Part shown: positions 2,435-16,550 of the stretch, piece after piece
How the letters are laid out: every line of letters starts with the position of its first letter
Numbering within the stretch: position 1 is the stretch's first letter
NCBI GenBank assembly: GCA_018664265.1
Contig: JABJOR010000564.1
Location: 1-16,550 of the forward strand
Length of the DNA stretch: 16,550 nt
Direction: 5' to 3'
From: Rhodospirillales bacterium
GTDB taxonomy: Bacteria > Pseudomonadota > Alphaproteobacteria > Rhodospirillales > Casp-alpha2
Translations under genes and position numbers: made by a program
Notes under the pieces: generated by a model
What the model saw: the letters and a program-made list of their open reading frames with translations, nothing else
What the model was told of the DNA's origin: nothing
Database searches by the model: none

Positions 2435-3847
2435 TTATTTCTTACGAATAGCTTCGGTGACCAAACCGATCAGCTCAAACATCAAGACCATGGAGTTCAT
2501 GGCGGTAATATTATTGGGGCTGTCTTTTGTCGGGATCATACAGACAATGTCGGCGCCAATCACATTCATGCCTTGCAGGCCGTGGAAAATCTTTATGGCA
2601 TCATAGACCCGCATTCCGGCGTATCCTGCTTCCAGATTTGACACCGCCTGGGCGTCTGCCGGATCAAGCACATCAAGATCAAAGGTTATGTACAGCGGCG
2701 CATCGCCAACCCGTTCACGAATGGCCTCAATTGTACGCTCCACACCAATTTCATCAAATTCATCATTGGTAATAATGCGGTAACCGCGCGGGCTGATCTT
2801 GTCGAGCGGTTTTGGCTTGGGGCGATTGCCACGCATTCCGATCTGTATACTTTTGTGGGGATCAACATGGTTTTCCGATACCAGATAAGCAGCCCAATGT
2901 CCGGCAGAACGTTCACTGCCAAGCCAGTGCGGTAAGTGATCATAATCATCCGTATGGGCATCAAAATGCAGAAGAGCCGCTTTCGCACCACCAGTAATTG
3001 TTGCATCTGCCCCGGCAATCGCTTTCAGGATCGGTCCGGTAATCGCATGGTCGCCACCAATGGAAACCGGGCGTGTATTTGCCGCATCCAATCGCTTGAA
3101 ATACGTTTCCATATGCTGAACACAAATATCATTAACCATGGCATGAGGTAGCGGTACATCGCCAAGATCATTGATCCTTACCTCATCCCAGGGACGGTAA
3201 CCATATTTCATATGGGCACGTCGATAAGCGCCTGACACATTACGCACAGCGCGCGGTGCAAGATGTTGATCGCGCTCGGTTGAGCCATTGCCGGAACTGT
3301 GCGGAACCCCGACCAGCGCAATGTCGCAATTTTCTGGATCCGCATCCCATTTACAGCGAAAGTACGTTGCTATCCCGTGCCAGTACCATTGCGAAACTTG
3401 CTGCTCGGCTTTTTCAATATCATAGACCCCCTCAGAGCTTACTGATTCCGAGCTGTCTTGTTTTATCTCTATTGTGGTTTCCAAATGCCGCGCCAAAGCG
3501 GCTCGCATAGCCTCTGGACCAAGACCCTTTTGGATATAACCCGTTGCGCCTTTTTGCATGCAGGCTTCTGCAACTACAGTGTCGTTTAGCGCACTGATCA
3601 TGACAACCTTGGCCGCACTATCTATTTTGAGAATTTCAACAATAGCCTCTATACCGCTGACATCCGGCATGCTGATATCCATCAATGTCAGATCCGGCTT
3701 TGCCGTAGCATAAAGCTTGATGGCATCACCGCCGTTTACGCACTCACCAACCAACTCGCAAGAAAGTGATTCAAGTTGCACCTTTAACAACGCCAAAATC
3801 ATTGGGTCGTCGTCGCAAATCAGAACACGCTTGGGTGTGGATTCCAT
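2435..3847 (-). CDS. Response-regulator receiver domain fused to agmatinase-type ureohydrolase (470 aa)
   Basis: Residues 6-121 form a complete CheY-like receiver: acidic cluster D12-D14, phosphoacceptor D57 (LMDISMPD), S85, switch aromatic Y104 and K107. A short polar linker (about 122-140) leads into a full ureohydrolase (about 142-470). Its two-manganese ligands are all present: H267 in SIGGDH, D296/H298/D300 in DAHTD, and D390/D392 in DLDVLDP. A possible guanidinium-binding glutamate is E406, although the usual GTGTPEPGG loop is replaced by AVSNLEAG. Such enzymes release urea from agmatine, guanidinobutyrate or related compounds. No in-frame ATG occurs between the receiver and M213, so the hydrolase is not separately started. 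A GGGAG ribosome site precedes the ATG by about 11 bases. The gene lies 82 bases downstream of the methyltransferase on the same strand and is probably co-transcribed. No sensor kinase is in the window. Fusion of a receiver to this enzyme family is unusual. Confidence 0.9.
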   Translation of the reverse strand: MESTPKRVLICDDDPMILALLKVQLESLSCELVGECVNGGDAIKLYATAKPDLTLMDISMPDVSGIEAIVEILKIDSAAKVVMISALNDTVVAEACMQKGATGYIQKGLGPEAMRAALARHLETTIEIKQDSSESVSSEGVYDIEKAEQQVSQWYWHGIATYFRCKWDADPENCDIALVGVPHSSGNGSTERDQHLAPRAVRNVSGAYRRAHMKYGYRPWDEVRINDLGDVPLPHAMVNDICVQHMETYFKRLDAANTRPVSIGGDHAITGPILKAIAGADATITGGAKAALLHFDAHTDDYDHLPHWLGSERSAGHWAAYLVSENHVDPHKSIQIGMRGNRPKPKPLDKISPRGYRIITNDEFDEIGVERTIEAIRERVGDAPLYITFDLDVLDPADAQAVSNLEAGYAGMRVYDAIKIFHGLQGMNVIGADIVCMIPTKDSPNNITAMNSMVLMFELIGLVTEAIRKK

Positions 3848-3929: not shown

Positions 3930-5450
3930 TTAAGGACGCATCACATTCCGTGGCAACAGAATTTCAAACCGTTTGCGGATTTCTGCATCCACTTCATCGG
4001 AGATGACGCTCGGCCAGTTTTCACTTAAAATCAGCTCTGCCCGTTTGGTTGCGGCTTCGCGTAGATCCATGGAACCATCGGCTTCCCAATCAGCCCGGTT
4101 AGAGCGATTTATAATATCCGGGTAAAGGTATTCGGTTTTCATCAACGCCATGGTCTGCGGTTGATTAAGGAAATGACCGTCCGTACGGCATGCCGTATCA
4201 ATAACGTCAATAGACAAGGCTTCTTCGCTCATATCAATACCGCGAACCATACGCATGACCTGTCCATTGACTTCGTTATCAATAACGTACTGGGCAAAGG
4301 ATACGGTCAACATGCTTTCCAGGAAACCTGCGGAATGGTGAATGTAGTTGGCGCCAGACAGACCTGCTGCAAGACTGGTTAATACTTTTTCAATGCCAGC
4401 CTGACTGTCAGAGGTTTTGGATTCAGCGATACCGGCTGAATTATAGAGGGGAAGTTTCATATGCTGTGCGATCTGGGCGCATGCAGCATTCATTACCGAG
4501 GCTTCTGCCGAACTGCCTGTATAGGCACCTGTACGCAAATCGGCCTGGGCCGGGACACAGCCGACAATAACCGGATGACCGGGATTGAGCAGGTTCACAT
4601 AGGCAACACCGGAAAGTTGCTCGGCCCAAATCTGGACCAGTGATCCGGCAAGGGCTGCTGGTGACGTGGCACCGGATTGTGGAGCAGAAGACAACACGAG
4701 CGGCATGTTGTGCTCAACAATGCCATCAACCACATCAACAGTTTCTTCAGCATAACGAAGTGGGCTCACCGTCCAGCATGCAACAAATGATAAAGGTGGA
4801 CGGGCATCAAAGGCATCAGCACCGCCAACCATCATTTCACCCAGCGCGCGAATTTCAGCAACACTGGAGCGATCATAAGCGTTCGCCATGACGTGCTTCT
4901 TGGTAGCCGTCATGCAGGCGTAGTACTGATTAATATCAAGGTTCTCAACCGGAATTTCACGGCTGACAACCGGACGCATATAAAAATGAATGTGATCAAG
5001 CTTATCAACAAGACGACCGATATTGTAGTTATCGACCAATGTTGTTTCCCGCAATGATCCATCAAGATCAACGATGTTAATGGCCGACCCGCCCGTTCCC
5101 ATGTAGACCTTGCTGCCACCCAGGTTCAAATCATGTTCCGGCGCGCGTCCGGCAAGCAGAACTTCACTGGCTGCTGTGCTCAACCCTTGCTCGACCACCT
5201 TGCGAGGCATCAGGATGCGATCAGAAGTCGCATCAACCGTACAGCCTGCTTTCAACAGGACATCCCGGCACTGGCTGGGGGCCAATTCAATACCAGTGCG
5301 TTCCAGCACTGTGTAGGCAGCATCAATAATGCGCTCTACATCTGTTTGTTTAAGCGGCCGATAATTCCCCCCATTCATGCCCCCGTGGACAACGGCGGCC
5401 TCTGGACTGTTTGAAGCGGATCTATTTCTGGATTTTGAACGACGTGCCAT
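3930..5450 (-). CDS. MttB-superfamily (trimethylamine/betaine) methyltransferase, non-pyrrolysine (506 aa)
   Basis: The protein matches the trimethylamine methyltransferase family in length and in its conserved pattern. It has a basic disordered N-terminus (1-25), a helical region RIIDAAYTVLERTGIEL near 40-56, a glycine-rich MGTGGSAINIVDLDG block near 117-131, and the SKTSDSQAGIEK block in the second half of the barrel. Characterised members pass a methyl group from a quaternary or tertiary amine to a corrinoid protein. The frame has no internal amber codon, so it is not a pyrrolysine enzyme; known homologues of this class act on glycine betaine, proline betaine or carnitine-like substrates. 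No corrinoid protein or reactivase gene lies in the window. The start is supported by a GGGGGA ribosome site about 6 bases upstream. It is the first gene of a probable two-gene unit with the receiver-ureohydrolase. The substrate is unknown. Confidence 0.85.
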   Translation of the reverse strand: MARRSKSRNRSASNSPEAAVVHGGMNGGNYRPLKQTDVERIIDAAYTVLERTGIELAPSQCRDVLLKAGCTVDATSDRILMPRKVVEQGLSTAASEVLLAGRAPEHDLNLGGSKVYMGTGGSAINIVDLDGSLRETTLVDNYNIGRLVDKLDHIHFYMRPVVSREIPVENLDINQYYACMTATKKHVMANAYDRSSVAEIRALGEMMVGGADAFDARPPLSFVACWTVSPLRYAEETVDVVDGIVEHNMPLVLSSAPQSGATSPAALAGSLVQIWAEQLSGVAYVNLLNPGHPVIVGCVPAQADLRTGAYTGSSAEASVMNAACAQIAQHMKLPLYNSAGIAESKTSDSQAGIEKVLTSLAAGLSGANYIHHSAGFLESMLTVSFAQYVIDNEVNGQVMRMVRGIDMSEEALSIDVIDTACRTDGHFLNQPQTMALMKTEYLYPDIINRSNRADWEADGSMDLREAATKRAELILSENWPSVISDEVDAEIRKRFEILLPRNVMRP

Positions 5451-13577: not shown

Positions 13578-14171
13578 TTACAGGGCCTTAATAAAATTCC
13601 AGTACAAATCATTCCAAAGCCCATTTATGATTTGTTCTCGTGAGTGGCCGGTTTCTTTCTCAATATTATCAATATCCTCATATGTTACACCATCAGGCAA
13701 ATCATGCCGTGGCCTTGCCCCTTTGACAAAAGGTGCTTCTGGCTCAGTAGGTTGATTAACCCTAGGCACATCTGGCGAAGTAGGTGTATCTACAATTGGG
13801 TCCGTTGGACTTGTTGGATCGTTTGGCGGTGTCGGTCCTTCAATAGAATTGCTATTTTGGGCGACCAGTATCCGCATGGTTTCGCCACGAGGATTTATGA
13901 GGCCGTCTTTCTTCAAGCCGTTGGCTTTTTGAAATCTTTGCACAGACTGTTTTAAGCGTTCACCGTAATAGCCCGTCGGACCATCCGTTTTATCAAGGTC
14001 CAGGTACCCCGCCTTGCCCAACAAGGTTTCCACCTTTGCAACATCTCGACGGTTATTGCTTGATGTGTTTCCTACGGGATTGGTGATCTGGAGCAAGTTT
14101 TTCAATCCATGAATTTCTTTATCCGTATTTTTTGATCGATTATATAAACGACCGGGGAAAGTAAGTGTCAT
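13578..14171 (-). CDS. Peptidoglycan-binding-domain protein with Pro/Thr-rich linker (197 aa)
   Basis: A PG_binding_1-like domain covers about residues 35-105. It has the pattern RRDVAKVETLLGKAGYLDLD, then DGPTGYYGE, then VQRFQKANGLKKDGL and a family-typical NPRGETMRIL end. A Pro/Thr/Asp-rich repetitive linker follows (about 112-148). A charged C-terminal region (149-197) is unfamiliar to me. No signal peptide or membrane segment is apparent, so export would depend on the phage holin or on release at lysis. The ribosome site GGAG lies about 7 bases before the ATG. It is the last gene of the phage-like set, 21 bases after the holin. Alphaproteobacterial proteins often carry this domain in cell-wall-associated roles; the exact function is unknown. 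Confidence 0.75.
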   Translation of the reverse strand: MTLTFPGRLYNRSKNTDKEIHGLKNLLQITNPVGNTSSNNRRDVAKVETLLGKAGYLDLDKTDGPTGYYGERLKQSVQRFQKANGLKKDGLINPRGETMRILVAQNSNSIEGPTPPNDPTSPTDPIVDTPTSPDVPRVNQPTEPEAPFVKGARPRHDLPDGVTYEDIDNIEKETGHSREQIINGLWNDLYWNFIKAL

Positions 14172-14192
14172 TGTCTTCTCCTTTGTTTAAAA

Positions 14193-14606
14193 TTATTCAG
14201 AACGTCCGCCAGGTCCGGGCTCTTTCCAGACCTTCACGCCTTTCTCCACCGAGCGCCCCACCACATACCCGCCAATACCGAGCTTCAACAGATCCCACAT
14301 GTCTGGGGGGATGTCGGCGATTGGGGTTCCAAACAAAGGAACAATTAAATAGTTGTTGGCGATGATTACGCCGAACAGGCACATCAGCATGGGTCGCCAG
14401 TTGCGTTGCAGCCAGCTGTCGCCGGTGGCTTCGGCGCGGATGATGGCGGCGGCTTCTTCGATTTCTTTCATCTGTCCGGTCAGGACCATTTCCTGCAACC
14501 GGGCCTTGATCTTTGCGGCTTCGTCCTTGTCTACGACGGTTTGGTCGATGACATTAAAAAGGCCGCCCAGGATCGGTCCTGCGACGGCGCTGAGAAGTCC
14601 AAGCAT
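14193..14606 (-). CDS. Phage holin, three-TM gene-transfer-agent type
   Basis: The 137-residue product matches the three-transmembrane holin family associated with phage and gene-transfer-agent release. It has an N-terminal hydrophobic segment with GPILGGLFNVID, and a charged coiled region KIKARLQEMVLTGQ with alanine-rich stretch (28-62). The motif W-R-P-M-L-M-C-L-F-G-V-I starts at about 70, then PLFGTPI and a terminal glycine-rich segment with GGYVVGRSVEK. It would permeabilise the inner membrane so that the adjacent lysin reaches the wall. A GGAGG ribosome site lies 8 bases before the ATG. It follows the lysin with a 15-base gap in the same transcription unit. Confidence 0.85.
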   Translation of the reverse strand: MLGLLSAVAGPILGGLFNVIDQTVVDKDEAAKIKARLQEMVLTGQMKEIEEAAAIIRAEATGDSWLQRNWRPMLMCLFGVIIANNYLIVPLFGTPIADIPPDMWDLLKLGIGGYVVGRSVEKGVKVWKEPGPGGRSE

Positions 14607-14621
14607 GAGAGGTTCCTCCGT

Positions 14622-15131
14622 TCATTCAATGTTGTTGTAAAAAACGTGTGCGCCGATCTCGACGCTGGACACACGCCCGCGCGCCCAGGGCGGGTTGACT
14701 GTTTTATTGTGATAGTGGGTCGCCCCGAATGTTGTATCACGCAGGGTTCCGGCAATGGCACGACGCGCGACACGAATGCAGGATTGGAAGTTTTCGTTTT
14801 CCAGCCCGACGGTTTCAATTTTCTCGCGGTTTGGATCGTGGGCATTCCAGCAACTGAATTGCCAGGCTTTCCTACAAACATCGCGCACTGTGCCACCCCA
14901 CCAGTACCGTCCGCCGCGTGCCCGTGCACGCCGGACACGATTGAGGATCACACAGGCGACGGCTTGTTTTCCTGCAACCAGTTCCCCTCGGGCCTCGCCA
15001 TAAATCGTTCGGGCCAGAGTATCTACATCCAATGCAAACGCAGTCGGCGGCGGGGCCTCATTATCCGGTGAAGAAATCACCGGGCCGTTGGGGCCTTTCA
15101 AGTTGGCATCACTTAAGGGACAAATCTTCAT
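14622..15131 (-). CDS. SleB-type cell wall hydrolase (phage endolysin)
   Basis: Residues 38-165 form a Hydrolase_2/SleB domain, a glycosidase of the lytic transglycosylase type. It begins LARTIYGEARGE, with the catalytic glutamate probably E46. It continues with the QAVACVILNRV strand, YWWGGTVRDVCRK and WQFSCWN. The closing GATHYHN segment and a final Trp/Arg-rich tail follow. The N-terminus (1-36) is proline-rich and has no clear signal peptide, so it probably passes through the holin. The ATG overlaps the stop of the preceding gene as ATGA, with GGGG about 8 bases upstream, indicating coupled translation. It is placed between the membrane/coiled-coil protein and the holin. Confidence 0.88.
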   Translation of the reverse strand: MKICPLSDANLKGPNGPVISSPDNEAPPPTAFALDVDTLARTIYGEARGELVAGKQAVACVILNRVRRARARGGRYWWGGTVRDVCRKAWQFSCWNAHDPNREKIETVGLENENFQSCIRVARRAIAGTLRDTTFGATHYHNKTVNPPWARGRVSSVEIGAHVFYNNIE

Positions 15132-15430
15132 GACGCATCCCCTTTGCCACTACCAAGTTTGTTTTCAATGCGGACCAGATGGCTGGTCAGACGACGTTCG
15201 ACTTCCTTCAGGTAAGGCATGGAGACGTAAGATTGCGCCACCTCCAGTTTATAGGCCGAAAGGCTTTCGCGCAGAAAGGCGAGGCCAGTATCTGAATCGT
15301 GTGCACCATCACTAACCGCATCTTCCATATCACGGCGGGTGCGCCAGTTTATCCAAAACAGTCCGGCCAGTGCGGGAAGTTCCACCATGGAAATCCACCA
15401 GACCAGATCGAGTGTCAGAGTATTTTGCAT
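15128..15430 (-). CDS. Prophage small membrane/coiled-coil protein (100 aa)
   Basis: A single hydrophobic segment (about residues 8-28, VWWISMVELPALAGLFWINW) is followed by a charged helical region with regular YKLEVAQSYVSMPYLKEVERRLTSHLVRIENKL spacing, likely a coiled coil facing the cytoplasm or periplasm. This pattern is common in alphaproteobacterial prophages beside SleB lysins, but I know no assigned function. The layout (one membrane anchor plus coiled coil in a lysis cassette) resembles an inner-membrane spanin subunit. That is only a positional guess, and no outer-membrane lipoprotein partner is seen. AGGA lies about 8 bases before the ATG. It overlaps the lysin start by ATGA. Confidence 0.7.
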   Translation of the reverse strand: MQNTLTLDLVWWISMVELPALAGLFWINWRTRRDMEDAVSDGAHDSDTGLAFLRESLSAYKLEVAQSYVSMPYLKEVERRLTSHLVRIENKLGSGKGDAS

Positions 15431-15455
15431 CTAAATTTTCCTTTCTTGTGTTTGA

Positions 15456-16550
15456 TTACAAATTAAAATCCGTTTTTGCCGCATAGGAGCGCGAGCCAGC
15501 CCGCCATTCCGGCGCCCGCTTGGGCGGCTTTGTGCCAACACGACGCGGCAGACGAACGGGCTCAGCCAGCAAGCATCCGGCAACCGCGTCCAACCCGTCA
15601 TCTCGTGTCATGGCACCGGGCCTCCATTCGCGCATTTCTTCAATCAAAGGCGAGCCCATCACAGAGGCATGGGCATAAAGCCTGCTCGCCGCCATGGGGG
15701 CATCAAAAGCATCGACAATGCGCATGGCTTTTGCCCTGGTTGAATGCGACCCATCAACCGCGATGGGCAGGTTGGCGGCGGCAATTTCACTGCGCAGTAA
15801 CCCGGGTAGGAACTTGCCGATGCCGTTGCTTTCAATGGTCACCTTGGGCAAATGCAGACGACGGACAAAATCAATGACTTGCCTGCATTGCTGTGTGGCT
15901 TCGTCCGCCTCATTCAACTTGTTCGGGTCGTGATTGAGGTAGGCGACTTCATGCAGACGGTAGTTGCCATCCTCGTCAGTAAAGACTGCGGCGATCACGC
16001 TGGCGTCGCCGCGTCCGGGTGCGCCGTAGGCCGGGTCCCACCAGCATGAGGCAGACACCAGTCGCCTCTCGCCCAAGCGTAATTCAGCCTCGCCTCCGGC
16101 TTCCCGATAATCGAGGTTTGCATCATAGACGACCAGTCGATCCGGATTAAGCCGCCCGTCTACGATGGACATGGGGCGCAGCATCATCTGGCTGGCGAAC
16201 TTGGCTGGGCCGGAACGCCGCTTGATGGTTTCTATCCGCTCCATCGAAAATCGTTCGGGCCAGCGGCTGTTGCCATCCTCGTCCACAAGAGCCAACTCCA
16301 GTCGTTTGTAATCATAAAGGTACGGTGGAGCCTCACCCGGGTCTGTGCTCCGCGCAGCATAGATTGACTCGCGCGCGTGTGGTGTTCCGACGAATAATTT
16401 CAATCCACCGGGCACCAGCACATATTCAATTTCATCCAGACGGTCACGAAGATCTTCGCGCTTACCCGGTGTATCACAGGTCTTGGGGACCTCCACGTCA
16501 TCACAAATCACCACATCGGCGCGGCTGCCTGTAATATTGGCACCAATGCC
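15456..16550 (-). CDS. Phage terminase large subunit, partial (N-terminus beyond right edge)
   Basis: This is the DNA-packaging motor/nuclease of a tailed phage. The frame stays open to the right edge. Upstream of the GTG at 16514 it reads GANITGSRAD and then VVICDDVEVP, the Walker B/adjacent motif of the ATPase, so the true start is outside the window and GTG 16514 is not a start. Downstream come the ATPase C-terminal part (LFVGTPHA) and then the RNase H-like nuclease domain. The nuclease domain has an acidic WWDPAYG motif and a GDASVIAAVFTD strand. VTIESNGIGKFL and a late DDGLDAVAG segment, which commonly bears the last metal-binding aspartate, follow. The pattern fits TIGR01630-type or P2/Mu-like terminase C-termini. 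It leads directly into the lysis genes (25-base gap), so the segment is prophage. Confidence 0.88.
   Translation of the reverse strand, partial: GIGANITGSRADVVICDDVEVPKTCDTPGKREDLRDRLDEIEYVLVPGGLKLFVGTPHARESIYAARSTDPGEAPPYLYDYKRLELALVDEDGNSRWPERFSMERIETIKRRSGPAKFASQMMLRPMSIVDGRLNPDRLVVYDANLDYREAGGEAELRLGERRLVSASCWWDPAYGAPGRGDASVIAAVFTDEDGNYRLHEVAYLNHDPNKLNEADEATQQCRQVIDFVRRLHLPKVTIESNGIGKFLPGLLRSEIAAANLPIAVDGSHSTRAKAMRIVDAFDAPMAASRLYAHASVMGSPLIEEMREWRPGAMTRDDGLDAVAGCLLAEPVRLPRRVGTKPPKRAPEWRAGSRSYAAKTDFNL

Follow-up and report, generated by a model that had tools for sequence, protein, structure and literature searches.

Receiver (REC) domains switch upon phosphorylation of an aspartate, and the locus described here raises the question of whether such a switch, joined in one reading frame to a ureohydrolase, could control that enzyme directly. 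The window, by which we mean the whole 16,550-nucleotide stretch of DNA analysed, contains the gene and its parts at the following positions.

2435..3847, minus strand: REC-ureohydrolase fusion gene, 470 codons plus stop (open frame, Pfam matches, identical protein P0001)
3494..3826, minus strand: CheY-type receiver domain, residues 8-118 (Pfam Response_reg, residue table against 15 related receivers)
3677-3679, minus strand: codon of the phosphoacceptor D57 (residue table)
3425..3475, minus strand: linker of ~17 residues, about residues 125-141 (end of the free receiver P0137, starts of homologues, codon usage, pLDDT)
2468..3325, minus strand: ureohydrolase domain, Pfam Arginase, residues 175-460 (six metal ligands H267, D296, H298, D300, D390, D392)

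In Pfam the fusion protein scores 85.4 bits against Response_reg (E 3.8e-24, cut-off 30.2) and 194.2 bits against Arginase (PF00491; E 4.3e-57, cut-off 22). Besides the profile match, the receiver has the acidic pair, Asp, Ser/Thr and Lys of the REC family, with D12, D13, D14, D57, S85, Y104 and K107 all present; positions D57, S/T85, Y/F104 and K107 are conserved in 15 of 15 related receivers. The enzyme part combines the PF00491 match and the fold of the arginase superfamily with two His and four Asp metal ligands. REC and catalytic domain sit in one chain, as expected of a fusion between a receiver and a metabolic enzyme, and the claim of the preliminary description that a receiver and a ureohydrolase share one 470-codon frame, with the receiver residues and the six metal ligands in place, was borne out. 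We regard this fusion as almost certainly genuine. An assembly or indel artefact joining two genes, the least probable of the alternatives considered here, would find some room in frame +1 of the linker, which has TAG and TAA right after the receiver end so that a single-base error could in principle join the frames, and in the fact that the genes are separate in a relative (genome G013, below). Against it, an identical 470-residue protein (P0001) is listed on a contig of 115,696 bases, presumably from another assembly since the window's own contig has 16,550 bases. A codon-usage profile trained on six further genes of the window's contig favours frame 0 throughout the linker, at 15 of 15 positions tested over the junction (by a small margin at the final ones), and the two alternative frames have three stops each within codons 116-150. 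Homologous enzymes begin at about window residues 133-142, inside a stretch (codons 123-200) in which ATG, GTG and TTG are all absent in frame; an indel alone would not yield two ordinary genes, and the enzyme part would hardly be made alone. The in-frame start candidates flanking this stretch are TTG118, TTG122, GTG201, GTG204 and ATG213. The earlier statement that the enzyme has no possible ATG of its own before M213 is right for the enzyme part, ATG114 falling within the receiver, but the four other start codons just named are also in frame. In the predicted structure, which rests on a 24-sequence alignment, linker residues 127-139 have pLDDT values under 50.

A whole-protein database search (8,000 candidates scored, 2,716 passed) gave as the best 120 of 2,716 the window's own protein and 119 single-domain PF00491 proteins with 57-71% identity, and it is to these 119 homologues listed that the following counts refer. 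The six metal ligands are invariant in their alignment. Residue 436 (window numbering) is Cys in 119/119, residue 315 is Ala in 116/119 and Ser in 3/119, and residue 317 is His in 119/119. Cys436 aligns with Glu274 of Escherichia coli agmatinase SpeB (7lol), which binds the guanidinium group, and Ala315 with His163, the proton shuttle, so that both residues are replaced in the window enzyme; in E. coli agmatinase E274A leaves 1-2% and H163F 3-5% of the activity, as described in PMC8125230. In all five PDB alignments shown (guanidinopropionase, proclavaminate amidinohydrolase, guanidinobutyrase and two agmatinase entries) residue 436 faces Glu and residue 315 faces His. The Pseudomonas aeruginosa 3-guanidinopropionase (3nip, 3niq), with Glu and His at these two positions, also differs from the window protein in its substrate loops and has no receiver. 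The NCBIfam agmatinase models are missed as well, with 103.1 against a cut-off of 174.3 bits for TIGR01230 and 165.1 against 302 for PRK02190. An agmatinase identity was rejected on these two replacements and the unreached cut-offs: judged by its sequence the window enzyme is not an agmatinase, and the label "complete agmatinase-type" does not hold. The altered substrate loop had been taken as a sign of a substrate other than agmatine. That expectation is probably right, but the alteration is mostly a property of the subfamily, as N404 occurs in 119/119 homologues listed, Q400 being the exception. The subfamily has its own invariant residues (183, 195, 317, 318, 404 and 436, each in 119/119 homologues listed), indicating that this Cys-type subfamily, which was met in eight families of the window's class, probably has a distinct specificity; the substrate is probably some other amidino or C-N compound. 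A conserved catalytic His is likewise replaced in the metformin hydrolase MetCaCb / MfmAB (Asn199 in MetCa, according to the text of PMC11271267), which differs in being a heterohexamer of two arginase-family proteins without a receiver; its identity to the window protein is about 22% in the VIA-align fold alignment, whose matches are filled by the enzyme domain and are uninformative on the receiver. Some members of the subfamily appear interrupted: the match is split between frames in L067 (G173:C55, 5615-6422), and L109 (G711:C29) has an internal TAG.

The surroundings of the enzyme genes give few indications of the substrate. One neighbour of the fusion gene had been emphasized in the preliminary description.

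3930..5450, minus strand: MttB-family methyltransferase gene, 82 bases upstream of the fusion gene and on the same strand

This neighbour scores 364.5 bits against Pfam MTTB and 370.9 bits against NCBIfam TIGR02369 (below the cut-off of 525), and it is a possible operon partner of the fusion gene. As a conserved partner it was rejected: conservation beside MttB genes, proposed at the outset as a check, dissolves on comparison, since the window itself, L036 and L064 are the only 3 of 33 loci with an MttB gene close to the enzyme. A more distant ureohydrolase outside the 33 (L039, 40% identical) adjoins an MttB gene too. When the neighbours of 23 loci were clustered, no gene was widely common to the window's clade that would form a conserved operon around the enzyme. 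Among the neighbours of clade-B members are a DMSP-lyase-family gene (L034), FAD/GcvT proteins (L036, L064) and a glycine-betaine binding protein (L037), and such betaine/DMSP-type neighbours hint at a possible role of some clade-B members in osmolyte or methylated-amine catabolism; they are too scattered for a substrate to be named from them. In L034 (G022:C31, 2488-4065) the subfamily ureohydrolase is followed by the DMSP-lyase-family gene on the same strand. In L037 (G002:C73, 10937-14364) CobW/HypB/UreG-type and HypA-type genes precede two arginase-family genes, an arrangement resembling that reported for metformin-hydrolase-like pairs in the text of PMC11271267.

The fusion itself was met once. 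The proteins retrieved with the receiver part (867 candidates scored, about 258-822 residues) were P0001 and 16 others, and PF00491 is present in P0001 alone, in a search that reaches relatives sharing short exact words and can miss diverged fusions. A second match covering both domains was absent from 48 genomes of the family, a second fusion was also absent from the best 120 of the 2,716 whole-protein matches, and a search of named genomes with the whole fusion gave two loci matching in the receiver part only (37% and 33% identity). REC domains attached to metabolic enzymes are an accepted class that places enzymes under environmental control (PMC5847659), and the response regulators with enzymatic output treated there have a REC joined to an enzyme as in our fusion; they differ in that an arginase-family output is not described in the main text of that paper, where "arginase" and "agmatinase" have 0 occurrences. 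REC-enzyme fusions are already known, and a ureohydrolase as the output was not found described in the literature searched, which excluded most subscription journals.

Absence of homologous fusions from relatives had been named at the outset as a refuting outcome, and the searches above indeed yielded no second fusion; the separate neighbouring genes of G013 nevertheless favour a functional connection. Subfamily members were retrieved by genome searches from 13 of the 385 genomes searched in the class (E 1e-75), from 5 of 317 in the order (E 1e-90) and, in three further groups at E 1e-90, from 3/5, 5/16 and 10/17 genomes, these sets overlapping; 33 distinct enzyme loci, the window included, were compared. 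A related receiver lies near the enzyme in two of them, fused in the window and separate in G013, and was not found near it in the other 31, three of which (L059, L066 and L125) have a contig end within ~0.4-0.55 kb upstream of the enzyme, where a receiver may have escaped notice. G013 (contig C261) belongs to the window's family, and its free receiver gene immediately precedes the enzyme gene in the same orientation (L031, 5505-5876; 123 codons, 50% identical to the window receiver). It has its own stop codon, followed by two further in-frame stops, and the gap to the enzyme is 48 bases to the first ATG or 87 bases to a later ATG preceded by what we read as a Shine-Dalgarno-like stretch. The receiver P0138 is 75% identical to that of G013 and the enzyme P0035 is 84% identical to that of G013; the longest contig listed for each has 126,564 bases, and since this is the only value shared between the 119 listed enzyme rows and the 47 listed receiver rows that give a length, P0138 and P0035 are very likely on one contig. 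The nearest receiver to the window's, P0137 (78% identical), is listed with a length of 124 residues. Its end, which may be set by the end of its 2,301-base contig, corresponds to window residue 124, where the linker starts; it keeps the phosphoacceptor site, S85, Y104 and K107. In the receiver tree the window pairs with P0137 (96/98) and G013 with P0138 (99/98), whose gene probably shares a contig with that of P0035. These four receivers and those of G015 and G001 form one group (82/91), and the stretches fetched around the G015 and G001 receivers contain no enzyme gene. The two linked receiver pairs as a single clade have a support of only 44/20.7, and the enzymes of the window and G013 belong to different subclades of the enzyme tree and are not sisters, which indicates either two origins of the pairing or an old pairing with frequent loss. 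By a rough, after-the-fact estimate that assumes one receiver of the group per ~3,000 genes, about 0.01 such neighbours would be expected by chance in 33 loci, compared with the two seen. In G441 and G173, of one genus, the enzyme gene is closely followed, in the same orientation, by another response regulator (REC and Trans_reg_C matches). With 25% identity to the receiver of the window (blastp E 0.002-0.008), it fell below the cut for counting receivers in the 33-locus comparison and was judged unrelated to the fused receiver; it is still a second case of a response regulator next to the enzyme. In G441, an open frame of 787 codons (L060, G441:C9, 6378-8741) matches Response_reg, Trans_reg_C, NTP_transferase and mannose-6-phosphate isomerase; this putative single gene would combine a response regulator with a sugar-nucleotide enzyme.

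The split pair and the free receiver P0137 also bear on whether the fusion is merely neutral or decaying, i.e. whether neighbours were joined by accident, with the receiver as a passenger and the enzyme perhaps losing its activity. This would agree with the single occurrence of the fusion and with the history of the enzyme part, which has a branch of 0.66 in the enzyme tree, compared with a median of 0.14 (four rows are longer). It also carries two private changes, G316 and Q400, at sites that are Ala and Pro, respectively, in 119/119 homologues listed, and among the best 120 of 2,716 the window enzyme alone has more than one private change at invariant sites (residues 154-465). The long branch and the private changes may reflect adaptation or decay. 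A paralog exists in the same genome and perhaps covers for the enzyme: on contig C278 two arginase-family genes adjoin (L035, G000:C278, 5937-7995), the second of which is this paralog, a clade-B subfamily member sharing 53% identity with the window enzyme. PF00491 is matched 11 times in the genome. Such an accidental joining is nevertheless unlikely, as the frame is uninterrupted in both domains and the family residues examined are retained in each, the receiver is little changed relative to the free P0137 (end branch 0.097) and linkage of such a pair occurs in another lineage too.

An N-terminal CheY-like REC on an enzyme of arginine or polyamine metabolism has a precedent in the extended (winged) AAT-fold Arg/Orn/Lys decarboxylases, which derive from a shorter, REC-less form and need the REC for decamers or higher oligomers, according to the text of PMC8503589. 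The receiver of the fusion could, by analogy with this neighbouring metabolic area, be a structural wing that promotes oligomer assembly or protein contacts and is not switched by phosphorylation. We consider this unlikely, slightly more so than an accidental joining. Against it, the phosphoacceptor site, the switch residues S85 and Y104, and K107 are intact in the fusion and are kept in the free P0137 too. The winged decarboxylases differ in their enzyme fold and in using the REC for oligomerization, whereas the window protein is a ureohydrolase with an intact phosphoacceptor site; Response_reg and Arginase are its only Pfam matches (E 0.001), and an AAT-fold PLP decarboxylase domain was not found in it.

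The likeliest explanation, to which we give a probability of roughly 0.55, is that an adjacent receiver became fused to a Cys-type ureohydrolase and that phosphorylation would control the hydrolase; it is preferred because an intact phosphoacceptor site and an intact metal site occur in one chain and a relative has the split pair. In the ancestral state a single-domain CheY-type receiver would have been encoded beside, and probably have acted on, the enzyme. In the window's lineage the stop codon of the receiver and the start codon of the enzyme would then have been lost. The gene appears to be a recent fusion of two partners that some relatives already have linked. D57 is probably still phosphorylated, by a histidine kinase encoded elsewhere or by a small phosphodonor, and the receiver switch would alter the activity or assembly of the binuclear-metal hydrolase, making a metabolic enzyme the output of a response regulator. 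Three of these steps are inferred: binding of the enzyme by the receiver in trans prior to fusion, phosphorylation of the receiver, and a resulting change in activity. More tentatively, and with somewhat less than an even chance, free single-domain receivers may control the enzyme in trans in the relatives, so that the merger seen here would mark the birth of a new response-regulator output class. Counting against the explanation are the single fusion, the 31 of 33 enzyme loci without a related receiver nearby, the non-sister enzymes of the window and G013, the long enzyme branch with its private G316 and Q400, the G015 and G001 receivers without an enzyme gene in the stretches fetched around them and the absence of a kinase from the subset of window ORFs scanned against family libraries. 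At 136-1359 the window encodes a HAMP-domain sensor-like protein of 407 residues, for which Pfam gave no kinase or MCP signalling domain; its frame stops before the contig end, and no continuation was seen in the window's first 300 bases. The other end of the window, 13578-16550 (the contig end), is prophage-like, with endolysin, holin, a second endolysin/cell-wall hydrolase and terminase large subunit (PHROGs).

Single-domain receivers often act through protein contacts, and the direction of control could be the reverse, with the ureohydrolase-like domain sensing a ligand and tuning receiver phosphorylation, the receiver serving as a phosphate sink or acting on a third partner. The absence of two classical catalytic residues from the enzyme would fit such an arrangement. 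It is nonetheless highly improbable, if marginally less so than an artefact, as the invariance of the six metal ligands in the 119 homologues listed points to a working hydrolase.

The preferred reading remains phosphorylation control of the hydrolase: with receiver and enzyme fused in the window and encoded by neighbouring separate genes in a relative, a signalling switch may directly control the enzyme. If this is true, two-component signalling would reach the hydrolysis of guanidino-type or related nitrogen compounds directly, bypassing gene expression. The fused and split forms in relatives would provide a ready pair for studying how a receiver takes control of an enzyme, and the Cys-type ureohydrolase subfamily, without two residues important in agmatinase, raises the second question of what is hydrolysed.
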